40,386 bases of DNA from Candidatus Afararchaeum irisae. GTDB taxonomy: Archaea; Halobacteriota; Halobacteria; Halobacteriales; Afararchaeaceae. The stretch covers positions 1-40,386 of the forward strand of contig JAXIOF010000023.1 in assembly GCA_034190545.1 (NCBI GenBank), written 5' to 3'. The notes below the pieces were generated by a model. The model was not told where the DNA came from. It ran no database searches and was given only the letters and a program-made list of their open reading frames with translations. Below, in pieces: positions 40,012 through 40,386 of this stretch (position 1 is the stretch's first letter; each line of letters begins with the position of its first letter). A program made the translations under genes and the position numbers.

Positions 40012-40019
40012 CCGTCCAC

Positions 40020-40386
40020 CTGATTCAGCGAGGGAGTCCCGCTGTTCACGGCGTTCACAAGACCTTCGGTCTTGTGGGCTCGGAAATCGAAGATTTCCGA
40101 ACGTATGCAAATCAAAGATTTGCTTGCACGCTAATCAGAGATTAGCGAACGTTGACGAGAGCGAAGCTCTCGTCCGCACATCAGAATCGCTCTGCGATTC
40201 TGAGGACGTTGACGAGACGCCGTGCGTCTCGTTCGGCACACCAGAACGCTTCGCGTTCTGGGGACGTCACCCAGAATCCACAGGATTCTGGTTGCCCGCC
40301 AGACGCAGTCTGGCGAACGGGCGGGAATCGAGTAAGCTCTGAGGGGCAAACAACGTTCAACGATCCGACCTACTCCCCAAGTTTTT
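40020..40386 (+). mobile_element. 5' part of a second TnpB-type element, inverted relative to the left one
   Basis: An 85-nt stretch (40236-40320) is the exact reverse complement of 1271-1355, and the bases after it remain similar (GTAAGCTC in both). In the left element the small ORF and tnpB begin about 100-225 nt beyond this point, so here they would lie past the window edge on the plus strand. The inner boundary near 40015-40025 is a guess. Confidence 0.75.
40056..40315. repeat. array of ten perfect hairpins, right copy
   Basis: Ten palindromes lie in tandem: 40056-40076, 40080-40100, 40107-40123, 40129-40147, 40154-40174, 40182-40202, 40212-40232, 40241-40261, 40271-40291 and 40297-40315. 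Arms are 7-9 bp and perfect, every loop is 3 nt and most units are 21 nt long, but arm sequences differ from unit to unit. Spacers are 3-9 nt and alternate: those containing ACGT take turns with those containing GCA or GCACA, so the underlying unit seems to be two hairpins of about 57-60 nt together. Confidence 0.88.

Follow-up and report, generated by a model that had tools for sequence, protein, structure and literature searches.

Results

Ten hairpins in the window form five two-hairpin units

The window, that is, the whole stretch of 40,386 nucleotides of Candidatus Afararchaeum irisae DNA analysed here, contains close to its right-hand end a palindrome of a type that occurs near the ends of IS605/TnpB-type elements and in PATE-like remnants, consistent with the TnpB-type surroundings first assigned to this locus. 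The palindrome is interrupted by an array in which a finder with free spacing recovered ten perfect hairpins in 260 bp (40056-40315), every loop being 3 nt long and the arms measuring, in order, 9, 9, 7, 8, 9, 10, 9, 9, 9 and 8 nt. The preliminary description had correctly counted ten palindromes in these 260 bp, but had slightly overstated their uniformity in calling nearly all of them 9-3-9, since six of the ten have exactly this geometry. Markov shuffles of the 260 bp gave a mean of 0.02 such hairpins and a maximum of 1, compared with 10 observed. When folded as single-stranded DNA, the region has a z-score of -11.4, and its centroid structure consists of the ten hairpins.

The alternation of ACGT- and GCA-containing spacers, noted from the outset, is real and meaningful: GC-type spacers (GGC, TTGCA, CGCACA, TCGGCACA and TTGCC in units 1 to 5) lie inside a two-hairpin unit, while CG-containing spacers link one unit to the next. 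Rather than ten independent hairpins, the array holds five two-hairpin units joined at CG; the module is the pair and not, as originally proposed, the single hairpin. A unit measures about 46-57 bp and reads T(T/CC)-hairpin-(T)G(T/G)GC-type spacer-hairpin-(A)A. Its consensus is CG-TYY-hairpin-(GC spacer)-hairpin-RA-CG, with the unit boundaries after the first and before the last CG; the outer ends are TT/AA or TCC/GGA, and one end usually reads CGTCC, the other CGTT. Units 3 and 4 are oriented opposite to units 1, 2 and 5. The features are as follows.

1272-1383, no strand assigned: second array of the window, two units (1325-1383, plus; 1272-1326, minus) in a homologous palindrome; hairpins 1276-1294, 1300-1320, 1330-1350 and 1358-1378
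40016-40053, plus: 5' half of the host palindrome up to and including the left CG; matches the uninterrupted copy on contig C1
40054-40101, plus: unit 1, TT-hairpin (40056-40076)-GGC-hairpin (40080-40100)-A, then joint CG 40102-40103; from hairpins and spacers
40104-40149, plus: unit 2, hairpin (40107-40123)-TTGCA-hairpin (40129-40147)-AA, then joint CG 40150-40151; from hairpins, spacers and genome copies
40152-40206, minus: unit 3, hairpin (40154-40174)-CGCACA-hairpin (40181-40203)-GGA, joint CG 40207-40208; covariance-model match 40150-40208, E 1.2e-12
40209-40264, minus: unit 4, hairpin (40212-40232)-TCGGCACA-hairpin (40241-40261)-GGA, joint CG 40265-40266; covariance-model match 40207-40266, E 4.6e-20
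40267-40317, plus: unit 5, hairpin (40271-40291)-TTGCC-hairpin (40297-40315)-AA, right-hand CG 40318-40319; covariance-model match 40265-40319, E 3.2e-6
40318-40386, plus: 3' half of the host palindrome with its flank, identical (100% over 69 nt) to array-free C1:75515-75583

On contig C1 of the host genome the matching flank without the array reads AGTCCCGGCGTTCACGCCGGGCGGG, and the window reads AGTCCCGCTGTTCACGGCG-[array]-CGGGCGGG. The array does not form a constant part of a single insertion sequence, a possibility that had been raised at the outset: six host-genome palindromes of this type hold 0, 1, 2, 3, 5 and 5 units. The end of the window's contig (40386) and that of C1 (75583) are the same base of the same repeat, and the host element beyond the window is thus probably a collapsed repeat in the assembly.

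The unit is dispersed among haloarchaea and occurs in protein genes

The array DNA matches 43 places in the host genome by BLAST, mostly over the length of one unit. A covariance model of the two-hairpin unit, built from 14 sequences with 18 pairs, gave 57 matches at E<=1e-3 in this 1.9-Mb genome, some of which represent one place on both strands. Across the order, at least one model match was found in 107 of 118 genomes (95 of the 98 good genomes and 45 of 48 genera). The proposed search for such arrays in the host genome and its relatives has thus revealed a dispersed unit. When genomes were drawn from the whole phylum, matches were obtained in 42 of 43 from the order versus 5 of about 200 others, four of those five belonging to one family, while a GTDB-wide pattern scan returned at least 80 loci, all haloarchaeal among the matches listed, which include Halorubrum, Natrialba, Halobacterium, Haloquadratum and Natronomonas. 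The unit also matches 43 plasmid records, all named ones being haloarchaeal; no match was found in the phage collection searched.

Two observations concern individual genomes. At loci L268-L287 of genome G302 the unit is embedded in a larger homogeneous repeat (AGGGGCAGTCGCGAGG...) and has multiplied along with it, so that copy number in genomes of this type reflects that repeat. In a genome outside the order (L267, G142:C12), a four-hairpin array of the same style lies near the locus centre, close to the start of what reads as an HMG-CoA synthase-like gene.

By simple flank rules, at least 85 of the 180 copies have flanks of the IS605/TnpB type. One host TnpB element (L015) carries arrays in both end palindromes (429-708 and 2103-2244), around its tnpB gene (802-2139). 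Other copies lie in frame in protein genes. The host Hel308 gene (L123, G000:C43:300-1400, at about 461-613) contains three in-frame hairpin pairs between conserved helicase blocks, amounting to about 65 residues that do not align at a point where PDB 2p6r runs on, and the AdoMet synthetase gene (L113, G000:C2:30500-31500, at about 484-540) has an in-frame unit that immediately precedes the conserved TSAEMGDDGS region, an insertion relative to 4l4q. Further in-frame copies occur in TnpB and ABC-transporter genes and in one that we take, from reading its sequence, to be CbiH-like. A Y1 transposase gene (L111, G000:C31:66800-69139) has hairpin pairs inside its coding frame. The unit enters IS605/TnpB-type elements at several sites and also protein genes. 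Recognition of transposon ends, one of the roles first suggested for the array itself, is not supported, given insertions far from any IS, as in the ABC-transporter gene.

Units insert discretely at CG dinucleotides

The clearest empty site is that of a 57-bp in-frame copy in the ABC-transporter gene of genome G039. This copy is lacking in each of the five congeners found to have the gene. The empty site reads GTCGACG followed by TCGTACATCC, with the junction between the two, and the filled G039 copy keeps the reading frame. Congeners resolve gain from precise loss at one locus only, and no gained unit was observed among strains of the same species. Three IS605/TnpB-type sites exist in both states, with CG on both sides when filled: the C-terminal coding region of tnpB (6 empty, 14 filled), the right end (8 empty, 19 filled) and the left-end palindrome (2 empty, 8 filled), filled copies that possibly reflect vertical inheritance of an old insertion. 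CG is present at the left end of 169 of 180 copies (94%) and at the right end of 162 (90%), frequencies somewhat favoured by the inclusion of these ends in the covariance model. The two CGs may represent a target duplication or the element's own sequence. Dispersal, discrete insertion with empty sites, CG flanks, variable unit number and occurrence in both orientations are all directly observed.

Arms are compensated and loops flip

The preliminary description had suggested that the arms vary in a compensated manner. Among 89 distinct copies, 99.0% of the 1544 pair cells hold standard pairs; 278 cells show two-sided differences, 6 are one-sided and 16 unpaired, whereas controls with slid partners gave 7-41 two-sided cells compared with the 278 of the true pairing. 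In a second set of 113 copies from named genomes, 98.1% were paired and 269 cells were two-sided; since the search pattern for this set fixed part of hairpin 1, hairpin 2 is its independent part. Both sets confirm compensated variation, with G-U or mismatched intermediates nearly absent, although mismatched copies are under-sampled by the covariance model and the genome-wide pattern, both of which prefer paired ones. The outer arm letters are conserved (CAGAA, ACGA), the inner ones vary widely, and the geometry is constant.

The loop-closing pair is C-G in 324 of 324 perfect hairpins, and 61% of their loops are GNA or its complement TNC, compared with 33% after column shuffling. Loop orientation is evenly split (GAA 59, TTC 60) and flips on unchanged arms: among 17 G302 paralogues whose orientation is fixed and whose arms are identical, 7 have TTC and 5 have GAA as loop 1, and these paralogues contain 37 reverse-complement loop pairs versus 11 expected, a number reached in 0 of 2000 shuffles. 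Compensated arms and flipping loops are likewise directly observed. Polymerase template switching between short inverted repeats homogenises arms and inverts spacers (PMC8604942). Covariation almost without G-U or mismatches, together with loop flips, carries the signature of such DNA template switching between arms and not of selection on RNA, from which we infer upkeep of the element at the DNA level. GNA triloops with G-C closing pairs form exceptionally stable DNA mini-hairpins (PMC4686876; PMC6479982), d(GCGAAGC) melting at 78 C (PMC4686876). The invariant C-G closing pair and the GNA triloops suggest that single-stranded folding matters for the element, which probably folds as single-stranded DNA.

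Discussion

Nature and upkeep of the element

The array most likely represents a stack of five copies of one haloarchaeal mobile element, a non-autonomous double hairpin that inserts at CG. A unit would enter at a CG dinucleotide and leave CG on both sides, and tandem arrays would arise when a new unit used the CG bordering an earlier unit. The apices of palindromes would be highly tolerant of insertion because extra hairpins merely lengthen the stem. Arm matching could be kept by a DNA polymerase that switches template between the arms, or by repair of a hairpin intermediate; a template switch would copy a mutation from one arm into the other and sometimes invert the loop.

Could the hairpins instead function as structured RNA, be it a TnpB omega-RNA scaffold, a terminator or an mRNA stabiliser, with compensation arising from selection on the RNA fold? 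Many copies do lie in or near TnpB elements, as the flank rules indicate, and element counts correlate with TnpB counts (Spearman 0.38, p 1e-4), although TnpB elements may only be good landing sites. RNA helices under selection, however, tolerate G-U and normally show many G-U pairs, while one-sided changes such as G-U occupy merely 6 of the 1544 cells. An Rfam search returned no family for the hairpins, with one chance match below threshold, the in-frame copies sit in unrelated protein genes, and the loops are equally frequent in both orientations. An RNA function is accordingly very improbable, and the guide-scaffold role initially considered for the array is not borne out. Selection by a protein that binds a double-stranded dyad, rather than template switching, would account for the conserved outer arm letters and the constant geometry, but not for the wide variation of the inner letters, nor does it predict loops that flip as a block on unchanged arms; we regard it as rather unlikely.

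The mode of spread has to be weighed in the same way. An array grown in place, through tandem duplication or slippage of hairpins in one IS palindrome with the unit itself immobile, fits the tandem arrangement and the variation of unit number at homologous palindromes. Yet adjacent units differ in arm sequence and orientation, and the unit is also found singly at unrelated sites, which have clean empty counterparts, and in 45 of 48 genera, so that this origin has little to recommend it: for the unit it is contradicted, and in-place duplication may contribute to array length. Mobilisation by a Y1 (HUH) transposase of IS200/IS605 type that would use single-stranded hairpins as substrate, the mechanism put forward for REPINs and TnpA-REP, is doubtful as well. 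The very stable single-stranded loops, the frequent insertion in IS605-type palindromes and the presence of Y1 genes in the host genome are in its favour, but 41 of the 98 good genomes lack a Y1 match and 39 of these 41 still carry the element, nine with at least 10 copies. Element and Y1 counts are uncorrelated (rho 0.16, p 0.11; partial -0.16 after TnpB). Co-occurrence thus does not support a Y1 transposase as the present mobiliser; one since lost may have been active in the past. No mobilising enzyme was found, Y1 transposase not tracking the element among the 98 good genomes.

For the mobile double-hairpin element that we favour, a broader and more tentative proposal is that haloarchaea at large harbour transposase-independent single-stranded DNA hairpin elements, which would spread at CG through replication or repair, keep their fold by template switching and not by sequence, and continue to supply in-frame inserts of 18-19 residues to proteins. 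The hundreds of natural copies in culturable strains make arm homogenisation and loop inversion measurable in nature, and allow one to ask whether the stability of single-stranded hairpins drives a mobile element. They also raise the question of how Hel308 and AdoMet synthetase tolerate such inserts.

Relation to known elements

We file the element among short palindromic non-autonomous mobile elements; no description of it from haloarchaea was found in the literature searched, subscription journals lying outside its coverage. Mitochondrial double-hairpin elements and repetitive hairpin elements of fungi and sponges are short mobile elements of two hairpins. With these our unit shares two adjacent hairpins in a mobile unit and works alike, but they are organellar. 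The closest haloarchaeal comparison is SMR-A of Haloquadratum walsbyi (HqIRS42/43/55), about 110 bp long, nearly identical within the family, with terminal inverted repeats and no duplication (PMC3119063). SMR-A is likewise frequent and lacks a transposase, its mobilisation having been called enigmatic (PMC3119063), and its insertion sites, like those of the unit, include palindromes near the ends of IS605-type transposons and of PATEs. The unit described here is distinguished, by description, by its 46-57 bp with two hairpins, diverse arms, CG boundaries and entry into protein genes, and it has neither the length of about 110 bp nor the homogeneous sequence. Two Haloquadratum loci (L154, L174) were read for a 110-bp SMR built from the unit; the clear copies are single units, and no link was shown.

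Other candidates fit less well. The omega-RNA scaffold of IS605/TnpB elements was set aside because RNA-type helix evolution and a fixed place at the 3' end of tnpB are both absent. The 108-nt insertion in halobacterial 5S rRNA (PMC7812874), considered because 108 is about twice 54, has one hairpin and a long irregular arm, a shape that does not fit.

REP, BIME, REPIN and CGTC-REP sequences resemble the unit as short palindromes with 8-9 bp stems that form head-to-head dimers in many copies, some of them intragenic (PMC3733652, PMC3116915), and the CGTC tag of CGTC-REPs resembles the CGTC(C) end of the unit. The described CGTC-REP families are bacterial and have loops of 4-5 nt (PMC3733652), whereas the unit belongs to an archaeal lineage, has CGTCC/CGTT tags and shows 3-nt loops in all units presented, a length that the genome-wide hairpin finder looked for but that free spacing yielded for the ten hairpins of the window. 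Nor does the association of REPINs and RAYTs with a Y1 TnpA-REP extend to the unit, given the 39 of 41 Y1-free genomes that carry it. Rickettsia palindromic elements are bacterial, about 150 bp long and, like the unit, inserted in frame in unrelated protein genes (PMC10969869); they are not known to have a two-hairpin CG-bounded architecture. The element can be viewed as an archaeal equivalent of the REPINs of bacteria, of Rickettsia palindromic elements and of mitochondrial double-hairpin elements, and it extends the question posed by the Haloquadratum SMRs of what moves tiny repeats into IS605 palindromes.
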